DNA of 64,000 nucleotides. It comes from Nitrospira sp. (GTDB lineage: Bacteria > Nitrospirota > Nitrospiria > Nitrospirales > Nitrospiraceae). Each line of letters opens with the position of its first letter. Position 1 is the stretch's first letter. The DNA lies in assembly GCA_005116835.1 (NCBI GenBank), contig SWDM01000016.1, forward strand, positions 248,001 to 312,000. The letters are read 5' to 3'. Both the position numbers and the translations under genes were made by a program. Shown in pieces: positions 28,103 to 36,635 of this stretch. The notes under the pieces were generated by a model that worked only from the letters and a program-made list of their open reading frames with translations, was not told the DNA's origin and did no database searches.

Positions 28103-28247
28103 AACCGGAAAAGATTCAGGGAAAAGATTCAGGTAGAGTAGAGAACAGGATTCAGCATCCCGTAGGCCAGGCCTATCTGTTGCCGCCTCTTTCGTCTGGC
28201 GGTGCCTTAATAGCCTTGCCATAGTCCGCTTCTCCTGTCCTCCCTCA

Positions 28248-28283
28248 TCAAACCGTGCATGCAGTTTTCCCGCACACGGCTTT
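28248..28283 (-). ncRNA. Group II intron domain V
   Basis: The catalytic hairpin reads AGCCGTGTGCGGGAAAACTG then CATGCACGGTTT on the minus strand. It has the AGC triad at its base and a GNRA-like tip, the strongest signature of a group II intron. Confidence 0.8.
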
Positions 28284-28293
28284 CCGATGTTCT

Positions 28294-29631
28294 TCATGCC
28301 AAGACATGCGCCGACCGCCAGCCCGCTCTAGTGGAAACCTTATACAACCCGTAGCGCTCGTAGAGGTCGCGGTGCGGGAACCGGTGCAGGCCGGTTCCTC
28401 TGTCCTTGATCTTGTGGCGCTTCATCAAGTGGGTTCGCAACCGGTCTTCCGCATGGGTTCTGACCTTGCTCATCGCCAGACTTGAGTTCCGATAGTGGAA
28501 GTAGTTCGCCCAGCCTCTCAGGCTGCGGTTCACATTTCCCACAATGTCCCCCAGTGGGATGGCGGTCAGTTCCCTTCCCGTCAGCTCCGTCAGTCTCGCC
28601 TTGATCTTCTTCAGCGATGTGTCTGCCGGTCGAACATTCGGGTACGGCTTTCCGGTCTTCGCCCCTCGACGCATCTGAATCGTAAAACCCAGGAAGTTGA
28701 AGCTCGCTTGCGTGGCGTCCACGATATGGGTCTTCGCCTCGTTGAGGCTGAGGCCTAATCGTTCCACCACGTGGCGCACCGCTTGTAGCGGTTCCTCTAC
28801 ATCGTTTCGGCACAGCACGACAAAGTCGTCCGCGTAGCGCACGAGGTGCGCGTGCCGCTTGCCTTGTGCGTGCCGCCGTTGCCATGTCCGGTCAAGAATA
28901 TGTAGGTAGCAGTTGGCCAGTAGCGGAGAGATCACGCCGCCTTGCGGCGTACCTGTGCGATTGGCTTTGCCGCCGCCCACGGTCTTCTTCACTCCGCGCT
29001 CGTCTTCGCCGATGACCGGGGCTTTGAGCCATTGCTTGATGAGGTGCAGGATGCCCCCATCAACGATGCGCTCGGCCACCACGGCCATCAGTTTGGCGTG
29101 CGGAATGCTGTCAAAGTATTTCGACAGGTCGGCGTCGATGACTTGGGTGTAGCCGGCCCAAAGCGTGTTGGCGATGTCGTCCACAGCATCGTGGGCCGAT
29201 TTCTTCGGCCGGAATCCGTACGAATGCGGACAGAAGTCGGCTTCAAAGATCGGTTCGATGATGAGTTTCACCGCCATTTGCACGACCCGGTCTCGGATCG
29301 TCGGGATACCCAGCGGCCGCAGGCTGCCGTCCGCTTTGGGGATCATAACGCGCCGCACCGGTTGAGCTCGGTAGGTCTTGTCTTTCAGATCACGGGCCAG
29401 TTCCCGCAGAAACGTGTCTACCCTGATTCCGCGCTCTATGGCCTCGACGCTGATCCCGTCTACTCCGGGACTGCCTCGGTTGGCGCGAACACGTCGCCAT
29501 GCGTGATTGAGGACATCCTCACGGCTGATCTTGTCGTAGAGCGCGTAAAAGCGATAGGCCGGTTCTTGCTTGGCCTTGGCATACAGCTTCCTCTGTAGCG
29601 TCCTGATCGCATCCGGGGTGGTTAGCGACAT
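28294..29631 (-). CDS. ltrA: Group II intron reverse transcriptase-maturase
   Basis: A 445-residue protein with all RT blocks: [70 protein letters not shown] and the active-site YADD in [10 protein letters not shown]. The maturase X domain follows ([13 protein letters not shown]). No HNH endonuclease domain is present; the protein ends [17 protein letters not shown]. It would splice the intron RNA and copy it into DNA. The frame is intact, so the intron may still be mobile. Confidence 0.95.
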
Positions 29632-30119
29632 GGCAATCCCCTGATCCTCCGCTCTTCGGTTGCCTGAACAAAGCAGGGTCCCTTCCCTCGTCCGGGGTTA
29701 TGTCGTCCCTCGAACTCAAACGGTACTATGCACCCCTCCGACTCCCGTCTCGGGCCACGGCGCTTTCGTTGCCTTATACGCAGCGGTCGGTGGTCTCCCC
29801 ACCCTCGCAGACGGGTCTCCAGCACTGGGCAATATGTCTTCGAGAATATGCCGACCCTGCTACCCCGGGAGTCGATGAACGCCACTTCCGTTGTTTCAGC
29901 ATCCACCCACCGGCCTTCCCCTTCTGACCACAGGGTCGGCTTCTCCAGTTCATTGACGAGGCTACTCATAGGTTCACTTGCGTTTCGGCCTGCTCTCTTG
30001 CTGTGTGGAAACTCACGACCCCGGATTGCTCCAGCGCCGCTTCCTCACGCTACCAAGGCGTACGGACAACTCCTTGGACGGGACTCGAACCCGCTAGACA
30101 CACTGCTGTTACTGCGAAC

Positions 30120-30144
30120 GGTCAGGCATGATTATTGACTTATT
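30120..30144. repeat. REP-end remnant
   Basis: GGTCAGGCATGATTATTGACTTAT recurs with few changes at 33413-33437. The GTCAGGCACGA...TTGACT motif is reminiscent of the flanks of REP-associated tyrosine transposase genes. No transposase is present. The group II intron starts only 16 bases away. Confidence 0.5.
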
Positions 30145-30575: not shown

Positions 30576-31046
30576 TTGTCGTTCACGCTATACCCTCTCA
30601 ATCTCTCCGGCCAGATATATGGCAGCCCGATGCCCTTTGGGCTGTTTGATCCCGATGGCAAACTCCTTCACGATTTGAAAGCAGTCAACATTTCCGCAAT
30701 CGTTCTCCTGGCAGAAATAGAGGAGTGCAGGGAGAAGACGGGAAGAGATTTGCTGTCGCTCTATCGAGGGCAAGGCCTCACGGTCTTTCCCCTTCCCACT
30801 CCAAACTACGGGGTCCCTTCCAATGGCCAGCTCGTTGATGTGCTGAAGCAAACGCGTACGTTCGCATCGGAGGGTCACAACATCCTGATTCATTGCTCTG
30901 CAGGACTCGGGCGAACGGCCCTGTTTGCCGCCTTGCTGGCCAAGCATGTCTTGGGCCTATCAGGAGCAGCAGCAATCGAATGGCTCGCCCGACACAAGCC
31001 TGACGCGCTTCTTACGCCAGCTCAAATCATATTGATTCTGACATGA
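30576..31046 (+). CDS. Dual-specificity/tyrosine phosphatase-fold protein
   Basis: A 156-residue protein with the Cys-dependent phosphatase loop HCSAGLGRTALF (Cys107, Arg113). A general-acid region may lie in LPTPNYGVP (about 73-81). The start is taken as TTG at 30576 (LSFTLYPLNLSGQIYGSPMPFG), because the beta strands before the first ATG look part of the fold. It could act on phosphotyrosine, phosphoserine, RNA or a nucleotide. It lies 37 bases before the next gene and heads a co-directional trio ending in a DUF262-HNH protein. Confidence 0.8.
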   Translation: MSFTLYPLNLSGQIYGSPMPFGLFDPDGKLLHDLKAVNISAIVLLAEIEECREKTGRDLLSLYRGQGLTVFPLPTPNYGVPSNGQLVDVLKQTRTFASEGHNILIHCSAGLGRTALFAALLAKHVLGLSGAAAIEWLARHKPDALLTPAQIILILT

Positions 31047-31083
31047 ACAGCGATAACGACAGCGTGCCAACCGAGGAGGGGAC

Positions 31084-31863
31084 ATGGCCAATCGATTAGA
31101 GAGTCTTCCGGTCAAAGAACAACGTGGTAGCCGGACTCGCTGCGTGTTGTTCACGGAAGGTACACGCGAAGAAGTTGCCAAGCGGCTGACTGCCTTAGTC
31201 GCACCACATGCCGTCGTCGATCCGACGCGCCATGTCTGGGCTCCGAAAGGTTTTTCCGATCCAGCCGAAGGGAAGTTAGGCGACACCGCGCCATTCTTAT
31301 CAGGCACGCAGCGAGAAGAGATTTCGAACTGGTGGCTGGCCGTTAGACACGCTGCCGCTAATACCCCAAACTGGGACATTATCAGTCAGGCGACGATTGG
31401 TGGCCGGGAAGGACTGATCCTCGTTGAGGCAAAGGCCCACGATAAGGAGCTGACAAAAGAGGCGGGCGGTAAACTGTTCGACGCAAACGCTTCTCAGGAC
31501 AGTACCTCTAACCATAAGGGAATTGGTGCCTGCATTGACGAAGCCAGCCGGTCTTTATCCTCGGTCAGTGGTCTTGCCTGGCATCTCTCCAGAGACTCCC
31601 ATTACCAAATGTCTAATCGTTTTGCCTGGTCATGGAAAGTCACCACGATGGGCATTCCCGTGATTCTTGTCTATCTTGGTTTCGTCAAAGCAGATGAAAT
31701 GAAAGACCGCGGCATACCTTTTGACAATCACGAACAATGGAAACAACTGGTTGAGTCTCAAAGCCAGACTTTGTTTCCGAATGCAGTCTGGGGAAGCGCT
31801 TGGGGTGTGAATGGAGTTCAGTTGATCCCTCTTATTCGCAGCGAGACTCGGGCCATCGGTTAA
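31084..31863 (+). CDS. Uncharacterised protein with a possible PD-(D/E)xK nuclease site
   Basis: A 259-residue soluble protein. I do not recognise the family as a whole. Asp98 in NTPNWDIISQ followed by Glu115-x-Lys117 in GLILVEAKAH matches the D...ExK active site of restriction-like nucleases, with hydrophobic beta strands in the right places. A Trp-rich segment (HEQWKQLVESQSQTLFPNAVWGSAW) precedes the C-terminus. Its position between a phosphatase-fold gene and a DUF262-HNH gene on one strand, with short gaps, supports a defence-related nuclease or sensor role. Confidence 0.6.
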   Translation: MANRLESLPVKEQRGSRTRCVLFTEGTREEVAKRLTALVAPHAVVDPTRHVWAPKGFSDPAEGKLGDTAPFLSGTQREEISNWWLAVRHAAANTPNWDIISQATIGGREGLILVEAKAHDKELTKEAGGKLFDANASQDSTSNHKGIGACIDEASRSLSSVSGLAWHLSRDSHYQMSNRFAWSWKVTTMGIPVILVYLGFVKADEMKDRGIPFDNHEQWKQLVESQSQTLFPNAVWGSAWGVNGVQLIPLIRSETRAIG

Positions 31864-31921
31864 GCCACTGTGTTCTTTAAGCCCATTTTAGAGCAAGGGG
31901 CAAATTCAATGGGGGTAGCGT

Positions 31922-33151
31922 ATGGAAATTAGCAAGAAACCTTGGCCGATTCTCTCGGTATGCGGAATCAAGAAGCGTATTGACACCAATCCAGATTTTC
32001 AGCGACCGGCCGTATGGAGTCGATCTCAGAAGCAACTTTTGATCGATACAATTATCCGAGGGTACGATATTCCGAAACTCTATTGGCGAAAGATTGGGTC
32101 CAATCCAGATAAGTATGATGTGGTGGACGGCCAACAGAGACTACGATCCATTTTTGAATATCAGAATGGGGAGTTCCCCCTCAGCAAAGACTGTGACCCT
32201 ATCGATGATATAGACCCGAGCAAGATGAAATATGCCGATTTGCCTGATGACCTACGATTAAAATTCGACACCTATAGTTTGGATGTCATTGTCCTAAGTG
32301 CCACTGGGGAGGATGAAGTCCGCGAGATGTTTCTCAGACTCCAGAACGGGACAACGCTTAAGGCTCAAGAGCGGCGCAATGCGATGCCAGGGAACATGCG
32401 AACCTTTGTAAAGCAGCTCGCTCTTCATCCGTTCTTTGGACATTGTGGCTTCTCGAATTCTCGGTTTACTTTTGATCATGTTGCGGCACAATTGACCGCT
32501 GTTGAATTGAACGGTGGACCTTGCAATGTAAAGAATTCAAACTTAAACACGGTGTACGAAAAAGAGGTTAGCTTTGACCCTACTTCCGCCAAGGCCAAGA
32601 AAATTAAGAGGGTTTTGGATTTCCTCTTGGAGGCGTTTCCTGAAAAAACTCCTGAATTGGAACGATACAGTGTCATGTCGTTATATTCCCTCGTGTCGCA
32701 CTGCATGGAAAAATATGTCCTGCAAGGTCGGCCAAAGGATTTAGCCAATTGGTTTCTTGCTTTCGAGGCCAAGCGTGCAACTGAGGAGGAGCTTCCGGAG
32801 GATCAACGAGACCCAGAATTCCTGTCTTACAAGGAGAGAACGAGCCACAGCACTGATGCGCAGGACTCACTTGAATGGCGTCAAGATTTCCTCTTGCGAA
32901 AGTTTTTTGAACAGGTGCCGGATATCCAACCAAAAGATAACCAGCGTTTATTCTCACACGAGCAACGGCTGGCAATCTTCCGTAGAGACCAGGGCCTGTG
33001 CAGAGTCAAAACCAAGTGTGAAGGCATTAAATGCGAATGGGACGCATGGGAAGCTGATCACATCACAGCATGGTCAAAGGGTGGGAAGACAACTGTGTCT
33101 AATGGGCAAGTGGCCTGCTTGCCCTGCAATTCATCCAAAGGGGATCGGTAG
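31922..33151 (+). CDS. DUF262-HNH (GmrSD-like) endonuclease
   Basis: A 409-residue protein. The N-terminal DUF262 domain (about 10-220) is ParB/Srx-like with PDFQRPAVWS at 24-33 and the nucleotide-binding DGQQR at 69-73. The C-terminal HNH nuclease (about 345-409) reads CRVKTKCEG, DHITAWSKGG and CLPCNSSKG, with paired zinc cysteines. GmrSD-type enzymes cut modified phage DNA using NTP energy; specificity here is unknown. The ATG at 31922 follows GGGGG. The TAG stop opens TAGCAGGATAAAGG. Base composition is more AT-rich than the metabolic regions, suggesting acquisition. Confidence 0.85.
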   Translation: MEISKKPWPILSVCGIKKRIDTNPDFQRPAVWSRSQKQLLIDTIIRGYDIPKLYWRKIGSNPDKYDVVDGQQRLRSIFEYQNGEFPLSKDCDPIDDIDPSKMKYADLPDDLRLKFDTYSLDVIVLSATGEDEVREMFLRLQNGTTLKAQERRNAMPGNMRTFVKQLALHPFFGHCGFSNSRFTFDHVAAQLTAVELNGGPCNVKNSNLNTVYEKEVSFDPTSAKAKKIKRVLDFLLEAFPEKTPELERYSVMSLYSLVSHCMEKYVLQGRPKDLANWFLAFEAKRATEEELPEDQRDPEFLSYKERTSHSTDAQDSLEWRQDFLLRKFFEQVPDIQPKDNQRLFSHEQRLAIFRRDQGLCRVKTKCEGIKCEWDAWEADHITAWSKGGKTTVSNGQVACLPCNSSKGDR

Positions 33152-33308: not shown

Positions 33309-33412
33309 AGGGTCTCCCACTGCGCGCGTCCACCGCTTACTTTCTCCCAGTTCACCCGCAAACCAAGTAGAGGTGTGAGGAGCTTTCGACTGCGGCCCCC
33401 GGGGGATTGGGG

Positions 33413-33437
33413 GTCAGGCACGACTATTGACTTATTG
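33413..33437. repeat. REP-end remnant
   Basis: GGTCAGGCACGACTATTGACTTAT, the second copy of the motif at 30120-30144. No transposase frame is attached. Confidence 0.5.
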
Positions 33438-33804: not shown

Positions 33805-34068
33805 CTATGCTGCCACGCGTTTCTTCGGTCCTCGCTTGGTGTGGGTCGTCAGGCGTCGAGTCGCCTCGGACATTTCGAGGAGTGAACGCAACGCAGCATT
33901 GACCGATGCGGAGTCACGAAAGGCATTGGCAACATCGGGCTCAAGTACGGCGACGTTTGCCCCTTCCTTGATCAGTCGACGGTAGTATTTTCCTCGAACC
34001 GCGTGTGTGTAGTCGAAGGTATACTCTGCCCGCATGTTGTCTGACGGTGGTGGTCCTTTACGTTTCAT
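33805..34068 (-). CDS. BrnA/CopG-like antitoxin of the second BrnT locus
   Basis: An 87-residue protein from the ATG at 34068 (MKRKGPPPSDNMRAEYTFDY). It contains AVRGKYYRRLIKEGANVAVLEPDVANAFRDSASVNAALRSLL, a pattern common in antitoxins encoded after BrnT-type toxins, and a basic C-terminus (TKRGPKKRVAA). The upstream toxin frame is interrupted by an in-frame TGA, and the intact toxin stop would overlap this start region, so the pair was once coupled. The frame of the antitoxin is intact. Confidence 0.75.
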   Translation of the reverse strand: MKRKGPPPSDNMRAEYTFDYTHAVRGKYYRRLIKEGANVAVLEPDVANAFRDSASVNAALRSLLEMSEATRRLTTHTKRGPKKRVAA

Positions 34069-34093
34069 GGCGTTTCCTCTCTCCCGCTGTCGC

Positions 34094-34375
34094 TCAGCGG
34101 GCACTGATGATTCCTACCGCAGTTCCTCGATCCGTATGGGCAACGATCAGTAACCGTCCACGGGCGGAGTATCCGATTGTGAGATACCTGCGTTCCCCGG
34201 TGGAATGGTCCGGATCAGTAATTGTGGCCGCGAGTGGATCATAGAACACGGTTACGGCTTCGTCGAATGAGGCTCGGTGCTTCTGTAGGTTGCGCCGTGC
34301 CTTGTCACGATCCCATTCGAACTGAATTTGTATATTGTAAAGAACTGACTTTGAACTGTCTATGAAGTCAGACAA
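34094..34375 (-). pseudogene. brnT: BrnT-like toxin, C-terminally truncated
   Basis: The frame has the BrnT pattern FEWDRDKARRNLQKHRASFDEA, then RYLTIGYSARGRLLIVAHTDRG and GIISAR, but TGA follows at 34096-34094. Past it the frame continues ATAGERKRHET to a TAA at 34060-34058, exactly the tail expected (SARxATxxERxxYE). One stop codon therefore seems to have removed the last 12 residues, which include catalytic-side basic residues. No ATG is available; TTG at 34375 is the likeliest start. An inactive toxin beside an intact antitoxin is a common decay state. Confidence 0.7.
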
Positions 34376-34379
34376 GACA

Positions 34380-34451
34380 ATGGCTCGGGAGTCTTTCTCG
34401 CCGCACGCCATCACCGACGACCTCGAAGCCGCGTTAGACCAGGTTCGATGA
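34380..34451 (+). repeat. Recurrent 23-codon mini-frame, copy 2
   Basis: ATG to TGA encodes MARESFSPHAITDDLEAALD and QVR, nearly the same as 33456-33527. It lies antisense to the region just upstream of the truncated BrnT gene. Degenerate CTGAGTGC-type words follow at 34486-34530. Confidence 0.55.
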
Positions 34452-34640
34452 TGTGCGAGGGGGCGGGAAGGGGCCGACCTTCGAGAGTGCTGAGGGTTGA
34501 GTGCTGGGTTCTGAGTGCTGAGTGAAGAAGGTGGGTAAGACAACGTCTCGTCGCGCTCCTGCGTTAAGCTGTTGCAGGCTGGACATTGGCTGTGTGCGGG
34601 ACTACCATGTGCAAAAGAAACCTCTTGATGAGAGATGACC

Positions 34641-34847
34641 ATGAGCGAATTGATCTTTGTGGTAGAAGAGGCTCCTGAGGGCGGGTACATTGCACGCGCG
34701 CTCGGGCAGTCTATCTTTACGGAAGCGGATACGCTGGCTGAATTGCCGGGGAAAGTCCGTGAAGCGGTTCGCTGTCACTTTGAGGAGGGGCAAGCACCAA
34801 AGGTCGTCCGCCTGCACCACGTCCGCGAGGAAGTTATTGCCGTATGA
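34641..34847 (+). CDS. HicB-like antitoxin, orphan
   Basis: A 68-residue protein (MSELIFVVEEAPEGGYIARA) with the compact beta-alpha HicB fold: GGYIARALGQSIFTEADTLAELPGKVREAVRCHFEEGQ. This family is often misannotated as a 2-oxoisovalerate dehydrogenase fragment. Its partner should be a HicA-type ribonuclease starting by overlap. The ATG at 34844 overlaps the stop (ATGA) as expected, but that frame ends after nine codons, so the toxin is gone. An ATG six bases upstream is an alternative start. Confidence 0.75.
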   Translation: MSELIFVVEEAPEGGYIARALGQSIFTEADTLAELPGKVREAVRCHFEEGQAPKVVRLHHVREEVIAV

Positions 34848-35020: not shown

Positions 35021-35246
35021 GGGCACATACATACTTGGGCGCAATGTGAGCTGAAGGAACGACAAAGAGGCCAGGATTCGCTTCTCGCCGCCGCAACGGC
35101 CTGCCTGACGTGTCTTTTCTGGAGCATGTCACGGTGATGAGGGCTGGTAGGTTTGTAGAGATCCTGCGATGCGCGCTCGCCTTACCTCGAACGTCCCTGT
35201 TAACATACACACTCCTCACCTAGATATAGTTAAGGAAACGCCAGCC

Positions 35247-36635
35247 ATGTCGACACCCGCACAATCGAATGCCGTACTTGTCGCGATCCGCACCCCTCGC
35301 GTGACCGTGGAGGAGCTGGAGAGCTCGCTGCAAGAGCTCACCCGTCTTGTGAAGACCCTCGGGCACCATGTCGTGGGCCAGGTGACGCAAAAACGGAGTT
35401 CCGATAAATATGCATCGGTCCTGGGTCAGGGGAAACTCGCCGAATTGGCACAGTGGACCGGTGGCACGGGGAAAGTCGCGGTGGCGTTTGAACGGCCGAT
35501 GCATAAAGCGGCGTCGAAGCGCGAGGCTGAAGCCTCGGACGTCACGGAGGAATCAGACGACGACGATTCGGATGACACGATCGAGGCCGCCCCGGCCCCT
35601 CGCGAACAGGCGCTGATCGTCATCGTGGATTGTGATCTGTCGCCGTCTCAGTTGAAAAATCTTGAAAGTGCCGCCGGCGTGCCGGTGCTCGACCGTACCG
35701 GCGTCATCATTGAGATTTTTAGTCAACATGCTCGCACCAGAGCGGCCCGACTTCAAGTCGAGATCGCGCGGCTCAATTATCTTGCGCCACGTTTGCGTGA
35801 TACCCGTGGTGGCAGCGAGCGGCAAGGCGGGGGAGTCGGAGCCAAAGGGTCAGGAGAGACGAGTCTTGAGCTCGATAAGCGCAGAATCCGCGATCGCCTG
35901 AAAGAACTCAGGGCAGAATTAGTGTCGATCGGGGACGAGCATCAGACGCGCCGCGCGAGACGGGAACAGGAATTGACGGTCGCCCTCGTCGGGTATACCA
36001 ATGCCGGCAAATCCTCGCTGATGCGCGCGATGACGGGCATCGATGTGCTCGTGGCCGACAAGTTGTTCGCCACACTCGATACCACGATCCGGCCCCTGTA
36101 TCCTGAGACACGTCCCAAAGTGCTCATGAGCGATACGGTAGGATTCATCAAAAAACTCCCGCATGATCTGGTGGCGTCGTTCAAGTCGACGCTGGATGAA
36201 GCGGCCAGTGCCTCGCTGTTGCTGTTTGTCGTCGATGCCTCAGATCCCTCCTTTCGGTCCCAACTCGACGTCACGCGGACGGTGTTAGCCGAAGTCGGCG
36301 CTACGGATATTCCCAGCCTCGTGGTGTTGAATAAACGGGATCGTCTCGGACCGGACGAGCTTGCGGCCCTGAAGGCGGAATATCCGGACGCCTTTTTTCT
36401 GTCCACGAGAAGCCAGGACGATCTGCAGGCGCTCCGTGAGCGCATTTTGGGGTTCTTTGAGCGCGAGATGGTCGACGAGGAATTACATATTCCGTTTACG
36501 GCTCAAGGGGTCGTGGCAGAGATCCGCGCCAAGATGCGGATCTTGTCCGAAGCCTATGATGCCGAGGGACTCACGATACGGGTGCGCTCGACCCCAGAGA
36601 ACCTAGCAGGTATCAAAAAGAAGCTCGCGCGATGA
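35247..36635 (+). CDS. hflX: GTPase HflX
   Basis: A 462-residue GTPase from the ATG at 35247 (MSTPAQSNAVLVAI), with AAGGA upstream. The HflX N-terminal domain contains VDCDLSPSQLKNLESA, DRTGVIIEIFSQHARTRAARLQVEIARL and a glycine-rich linker (RGGSERQGGGVGAKGSG). G1 is GYTNAGKSSL, G3 DTVGFIKKLPHDL and G4 NKRD. HflX splits stalled or hibernating ribosomes. An acidic insertion EESDDDDSDDTIEAA near residue 100 is unusual for the family. No hfq or hflKC is adjacent. Confidence 0.95.
   Translation: MSTPAQSNAVLVAIRTPRVTVEELESSLQELTRLVKTLGHHVVGQVTQKRSSDKYASVLGQGKLAELAQWTGGTGKVAVAFERPMHKAASKREAEASDVTEESDDDDSDDTIEAAPAPREQALIVIVDCDLSPSQLKNLESAAGVPVLDRTGVIIEIFSQHARTRAARLQVEIARLNYLAPRLRDTRGGSERQGGGVGAKGSGETSLELDKRRIRDRLKELRAELVSIGDEHQTRRARREQELTVALVGYTNAGKSSLMRAMTGIDVLVADKLFATLDTTIRPLYPETRPKVLMSDTVGFIKKLPHDLVASFKSTLDEAASASLLLFVVDASDPSFRSQLDVTRTVLAEVGATDIPSLVVLNKRDRLGPDELAALKAEYPDAFFLSTRSQDDLQALRERILGFFEREMVDEELHIPFTAQGVVAEIRAKMRILSEAYDAEGLTIRVRSTPENLAGIKKKLAR

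Follow-up and report, generated by a model that had tools for sequence, protein, structure and literature searches.

Do three adjacent genes in a 64,000-nucleotide stretch of Nitrospira DNA (the window) form one defence module, or does only part of the set travel together? The original prediction joined a Cys-phosphatase, a middle protein with a nuclease-like site and a GmrSD-like DUF262-HNH enzyme (genes 1, 2 and 3; 30576-33151, Table 1) in a single unit. The open reading frames lie where it placed them, co-directional on the forward strand with gaps of 37 and 58 bases, and they are more AT-rich than the other window genes measured, with GC contents of 0.54, 0.53 and 0.47 versus 0.55-0.60. 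The accessory surroundings are likewise as described, with a group II intron on the left, a BrnT toxin gene on the right and dispersed repeats on either side. The genome is Nitrospira-like; the closest named homologue was 83% identical and came from a Nitrospiraceae record.

Table 1. Features of the locus, in window coordinates
Feature	Position	Strand	Remarks
Group II intron	28133-30087	-	Directly left of the proposed cassette; Rfam matches at both ends
Reverse transcriptase/maturase of the intron	28294-29631		
25-base repeat, left copy	30120-30144		
Phosphatase gene (gene 1)	30576-31046	+	156 aa, TTG start; DSP/PTP-type Cys-phosphatase; constant gene of the proposed cassette
Asn77 in the general-acid Asp position	30804-30806	+	By alignment with SsoPTP
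P-loop H106-C107-S-A-G-L-G-R113	30891-30914	+	HC..G.GRT invariant across 16 relatives
Nuclease-like gene (gene 2)	31084-31863	+	259 aa; PD-(D/E)xK-like, unnamed family; exchangeable gene of the proposed cassette
Asp98, predicted active site	31375-31377	+	Invariant in 25 sequences
Glu115-Ala-Lys117 (ExK), predicted active site	31426-31434	+	E115 and K117 invariant in 25 sequences
DUF262-HNH gene (gene 3)	31922-33151	+	409 aa; GmrSD-like; neighbour outside the recurrent unit
25-base repeat, right copy	33412-33436		
BrnT toxin gene and small partner gene downstream	33805-34690	-	Between the proposed cassette and hflX
Stretch kept upstream of hflX in several relatives	34372-34847		
hflX	35169-36635	+	Marks the restriction hotspot; close to the phosphatase in most loci

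Comparison with other genomes divides the three genes. The phosphatase and gene 2 recur together in two other Nitrospiraceae genomes, G279 and G070 (L001 comes from the species record of G070). With the loci aligned on the phosphatase start, homology to the window runs from offset 0 to ~1270 in both; this spans genes 1 and 2 exactly, and the block ends at the gene 2 stop codon, with nothing beyond. The G070 homologue of gene 2 is interrupted early by an in-frame TGA, and its actual start may be a GTG further along. A DUF262-HNH gene stands beside the phosphatase or gene 2 in no other locus read, and the expected conservation of the trio thus held for the first two genes and in no other genome for all three together. 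On the homology boundaries and the absence of gene 3 beside the pair in the other loci read, we reject a three-gene unit. Adjacency, shared direction, the 58-base gap and the two dispersed-repeat copies that bracket all three genes would favour such a module, but gene 3 also differs in GC content and the bracketing repeat has 15 copies in the genome, and we regard it as the least probable of all the readings considered here.

The assignment of gene 3 itself stands. It carries the DUF262 N-terminal domain (GmrSD_N; PF03235, 1e-18) and an HNH domain (PF01844, 1e-10) and in this resembles the DUF262-DUF1524 enzymes of GmrSD type IV restriction; it differs from them in that the DUF1524 C-terminal domain (GmrSD_C, PF07510) is absent, with HNH in its place, and in lying outside the recurrent unit. 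Over part of its length it matches NsnA, REase_II and other DUF262 models of PADLOC-DB 2.0.0. Among plasmid proteins, its best homologue (52% across the full length; Rhizobium sp. NLR16a) sits between a DNA methyltransferase and a DEAD/DEAH helicase, which indicates that gene 3 is itself of restriction type; it was probably acquired separately. Full GmrSD proteins adjoin the phosphatase–gene 2 pair in G279 and a gene 2 homologue in locus L042.

What, then, is the middle protein? Profile searches of its 259 residues returned no match in Pfam, PADLOC or NCBIfam. Neither gene 1 nor gene 2 matched any model of PADLOC-DB 2.0.0, and neither the gene 2 nor the gene 3 protein matched the PDB by sequence. 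In an alignment of 25 sequences, E62, W97, D98, E115, K117, E122, Y174, Q175, N178, R179 and A181 are invariant. The catalytic D and (D/E)xK of PD-(D/E)xK enzymes are among these residues, so the nuclease-like D98...E115-x-K117 site noticed in the single sequence is more than chance, and the invariant positions fit a PD-(D/E)xK active site. A shortened homologue in G177 (L010 9623-10126, minus strand), which has no D...ExK part and was left out of the motif comparison, is probably a decayed copy.

With the 25-sequence alignment, AlphaFold gave a model of the gene 2 protein with pLDDT 94 and pTM 0.92; with only 6 sequences, the pLDDT was 43. Foldseek returned no match to the model below an E value of 0.3. 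On realignment the leading matches were all PD-(D/E)xK enzymes, with BstEII as the best (Z 6.0 over 136 residues) and McrC, Can2, PaqCI, SfsA, MunI and HamA among the others. Because these Z values are middling, the assignment leans jointly on motif, topology and matches, which together support a PD-(D/E)xK-like protein with predicted nuclease activity. Like restriction endonucleases such as BstEII, McrC, PaqCI and Can2, it has the invariant D...ExK, and its leading structural matches all come from their superfamily; but its sequence matches none of the named or solved families, and Z is at most 6.0.

Genome searches found about 17 close and 8 remote homologues of gene 2; besides Nitrospiraceae, they come from the class of one Acidobacteria record and that of one Chloroflexi record. 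Viral contigs and phages held no relative of the nuclease, and plasmids a single distant one. The close homologues outside Nitrospiraceae have no phosphatase, and a few lie in restriction operons. One stands behind HsdM-, GmrSD- and HsdS-type genes with 4-base overlaps (L042), another behind an N6/N4 methyltransferase (L044), and in L054 a third precedes genes for a DUF7226 protein and a D12 methyltransferase. The type I-like operon of L042 (642-7143, minus strand) has a DUF262-DUF1524 gene (GmrSD, plus DUF5655) and the gene 2 homologue on either side of HsdS. A remote, unnamed sister family of ~230-255 aa (L046-L051, L056, L057) has the motif WDA...EAK(A/S)H...YQ.ANR.A and occurs in the same genome groups; it adjoins ordinary genes (aminotransferases, RNase J-like proteins), and the four members scanned had no Pfam match.

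Behind the phosphatase, the nuclease-like partner changes. Three situations of the phosphatase were seen: a nuclease-like gene next to it (7 loci), a convergent REase-ARP gene, and a DUF2252 neighbour. The seven loci of the first kind, the window included, lie in accessory islands, and their two genes either overlap or lie a short distance apart. In the window, G279 and G070 the second gene is of the gene 2 family; in four further genomes, with phosphatases 68-80% identical, it is of three other nuclease-like kinds: DUF6946 (PF22187) with a VEAKA motif in G357, REase-ARP (PF22558) in G311 and, shortened, in G055, and a 279-residue LEAKM-motif protein in G281 that has no Pfam match and is nuclease-like by motif only. 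REase-ARP and DUF6946, which take the place of gene 2 behind the same phosphatase, have no sequence similarity to it, and no BLAST similarity was found in the four pairs of partner kinds tested. Between loci with different partners, homology is usually confined to the phosphatase gene (offsets ~0 to 453-475); the exceptions, G055 with G281 and G055 with G311, extend further because neighbours are shared, an HsdR gene upstream in the former and REase-ARP downstream in the latter.

The pair lies in restriction-rich accessory islands, which bears out the accessory setting of the original prediction. Upstream of the phosphatase are an EcoAI-type HsdR (G055, G281), Mrr (G311), HsdR at a distance (G357) or a DUF262-DUF1524-like protein (G279); in the window and G070, no restriction gene lies directly upstream of the pair. 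An eighth, more distant locus (G376, phosphatase 49% identical) has the convergent REase-ARP gene, and a second phosphatase clade (L080-L088) sits beside DUF2252, often next to hflX, with no nuclease behind. In a family-wide search the phosphatase was present in 33 of 172 Nitrospiraceae genomes (23 strong matches), and its tree has too few well-supported branches to order the island loci. The link between phosphatase and nuclease was not found outside Nitrospiraceae: plasmid relatives of REase-ARP lie in unrelated surroundings, as do those of the phosphatase, which sit in transport or arsenic operons. PF22558 had no match in the window's own genome, but control genomes were equally silent.

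Could position explain the pairing? Six of the seven island loci have hflX close to the phosphatase; in the remaining one, G281, the examined stretch ends before hflX would be expected. Seven other hflX loci read in the window's genus (L121-L127) all lack the phosphatase. Six of them have accessory genes upstream of hflX, mostly type I/III restriction or helicase-nuclease genes, in sets that differ among the six genomes; L127 has only ordinary genes there. Defence genes, named here by eye rather than by profile, make this upstream region a hotspot in the genus. We also considered the phosphatase as a fixed flank of hflX and rejected this for the genus, given seven loci without it, one of which has no restriction genes either. 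The identities of the two genes disagree across genomes (0.90 for hflX and 0.73 for the phosphatase between G055 and G311; 0.80 and 0.87, respectively, between G070 and G055), and the phosphatase therefore moved independently of hflX. With restriction genes so common in the hotspot, location could account for part of the tendency to find a nuclease next to the phosphatase.

The chemistry of the phosphatase bears on what it might do. That gene 1 encodes a Cys-phosphatase was borne out by Pfam (PF22785 at 39.6 bits, cut-off 27; PF05706 and PF22784 likewise above their cut-offs) and by an intact HCX5R P-loop, H106-C107-(X)5-R113. It shares this loop and the fold family with the Cys-dependent DSP/PTP phosphatases (Tc-R-P of PF22785, CDKN3-like, SsoPTP) but differs from canonical PTPs in that the general-acid Asp of the WPD-type loop is absent and replaced by Asn77, which makes it an acid-less, non-canonical variant. 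Asn occupies this position in all 15 Nitrospira clade members checked, and Asp in seven outgroup members (L091-L093 and four plasmid relatives). The DUF2252-linked clade has Asn77 too, so the change is not specific to nuclease-linked phosphatases. PTPs that work without a general acid include the RNA 5'-phosphatases MCE1, baculovirus phosphatase and DUSP11 and the inositol pyrophosphate phosphatases Siw14 and AtPFA-DSP1 (PMC9038691). Because the general acid is missing, we infer that the gene 1 product is more likely to act on a phosphoanhydride, or to work by binding, than to hydrolyse a protein phosphoester or a DNA 5'-phosphate.

Tentatively, and with slightly more doubt than belief, we read the phosphatase and the nuclease behind it as an accessory restriction cassette of two genes, located in the Nitrospiraceae hflX hotspot, with the phosphatase fixed and the nuclease families exchanged. 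The PD-(D/E)xK protein would be the effector that attacks DNA, and the phosphatase a partner kept in place as nuclease families are swapped behind it. The partner nucleases have no sequence in common, and the phosphatase would therefore more likely act on a shared target (a nucleotide, an RNA 5'-polyphosphate or a single host factor) than on a phospho-site in each of them. Pointing to such a cassette are the pair in three genomes with homology confined to it, and the same phosphatase ahead of DUF6946, REase-ARP (one intact, one shortened) or the LEAKM protein in four more; the close spacing, the HsdR, Mrr and GmrSD genes upstream and the mobility relative to hflX; and, for gene 2, active-site conservation, fold and the presence of its family in type I and type II modification operons. 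The homology boundaries support an exchangeable nuclease in what is a small sample, seven island loci from one bacterial family, in a hotspot rich in restriction genes anyway. Also against the cassette are the lack of a phosphatase beside most nuclease homologues outside Nitrospiraceae, the related DUF2252-linked clade with the same Asn77 and no nuclease, the plasmid phosphatases in transport or arsenic operons and the early in-frame TGA in the G070 nuclease gene. A new kind of two-component immunity, in which the constant acid-less Cys-phosphatase would control or arm the swappable PD-(D/E)xK nucleases through a nucleotide or RNA 5'-polyphosphate signal, is a speculative and rather unlikely proposal.

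The main rival makes the phosphatase an unrelated accessory gene of the hflX hotspot, flanked on either side by restriction genes that are exchanged in part through recombination inside it; the nuclease would then be an orphan restriction enzyme working alone. We hold this to be a serious contender, though on the improbable side. Relatives that lack the phosphatase also carry restriction genes in the hotspot, homologues of the nuclease stand alone or next to methyltransferases, the sister phosphatase clade has no nuclease, and a recombination anchor would also give homology blocks that end with the phosphatase; but each of the seven island loci keeps the order phosphatase-then-nuclease, with the two genes overlapping or closely spaced, and in two of them, the window and G070, no restriction gene directly precedes the pair. 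A very improbable alternative is that the phosphatase strips 5'-phosphates from nuclease-cut DNA ends and so blocks religation of phage DNA: such a partner-independent substrate would suit any nuclease and explain the exchange, but the general acid, which is Asn here, should be required to hydrolyse an alkyl phosphate. A toxin-antitoxin-like pair, in which the phosphatase restrains a toxic nuclease, would fit two genes that are small, closely packed and exchanged, the second of them variable. We think this very improbable, as a single phosphatase that changes little would have to neutralise nucleases unrelated to one another, and many homologues of the nuclease occur without it.

Accessory restriction nucleases are well known. 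If the phosphatase works with whichever nuclease follows it, as the cassette reading would have it, it would join the regulators known in restriction islands and offer a one-gene handle for finding uncharacterised restriction nucleases, including the unnamed family of gene 2; failing that, a compact natural collection of restriction genes is still to be found in the Nitrospiraceae hflX hotspot. The gene 2 nuclease would itself represent a new family of PD-(D/E)xK-like proteins, whose homologues span three phyla or more. The papers searched, which perhaps do not cover the source papers of the relevant Pfam families, hold nothing on REase-ARP or on such phosphatases with restriction genes, which suggests that a constant phosphatase ahead of restriction nucleases is new as far as this literature goes.

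A minor observation concerns the 25-base repeat on either side of the three genes, GGTCAGGCAYGAYTATTGACTTATT, whose 15 genome copies were counted within 2 mismatches. In L151 a copy lies just upstream of a frame reading MARKPRIDFPGAFFHVIAR, which by eye looks like a REP-associated (RAYT) transposase.
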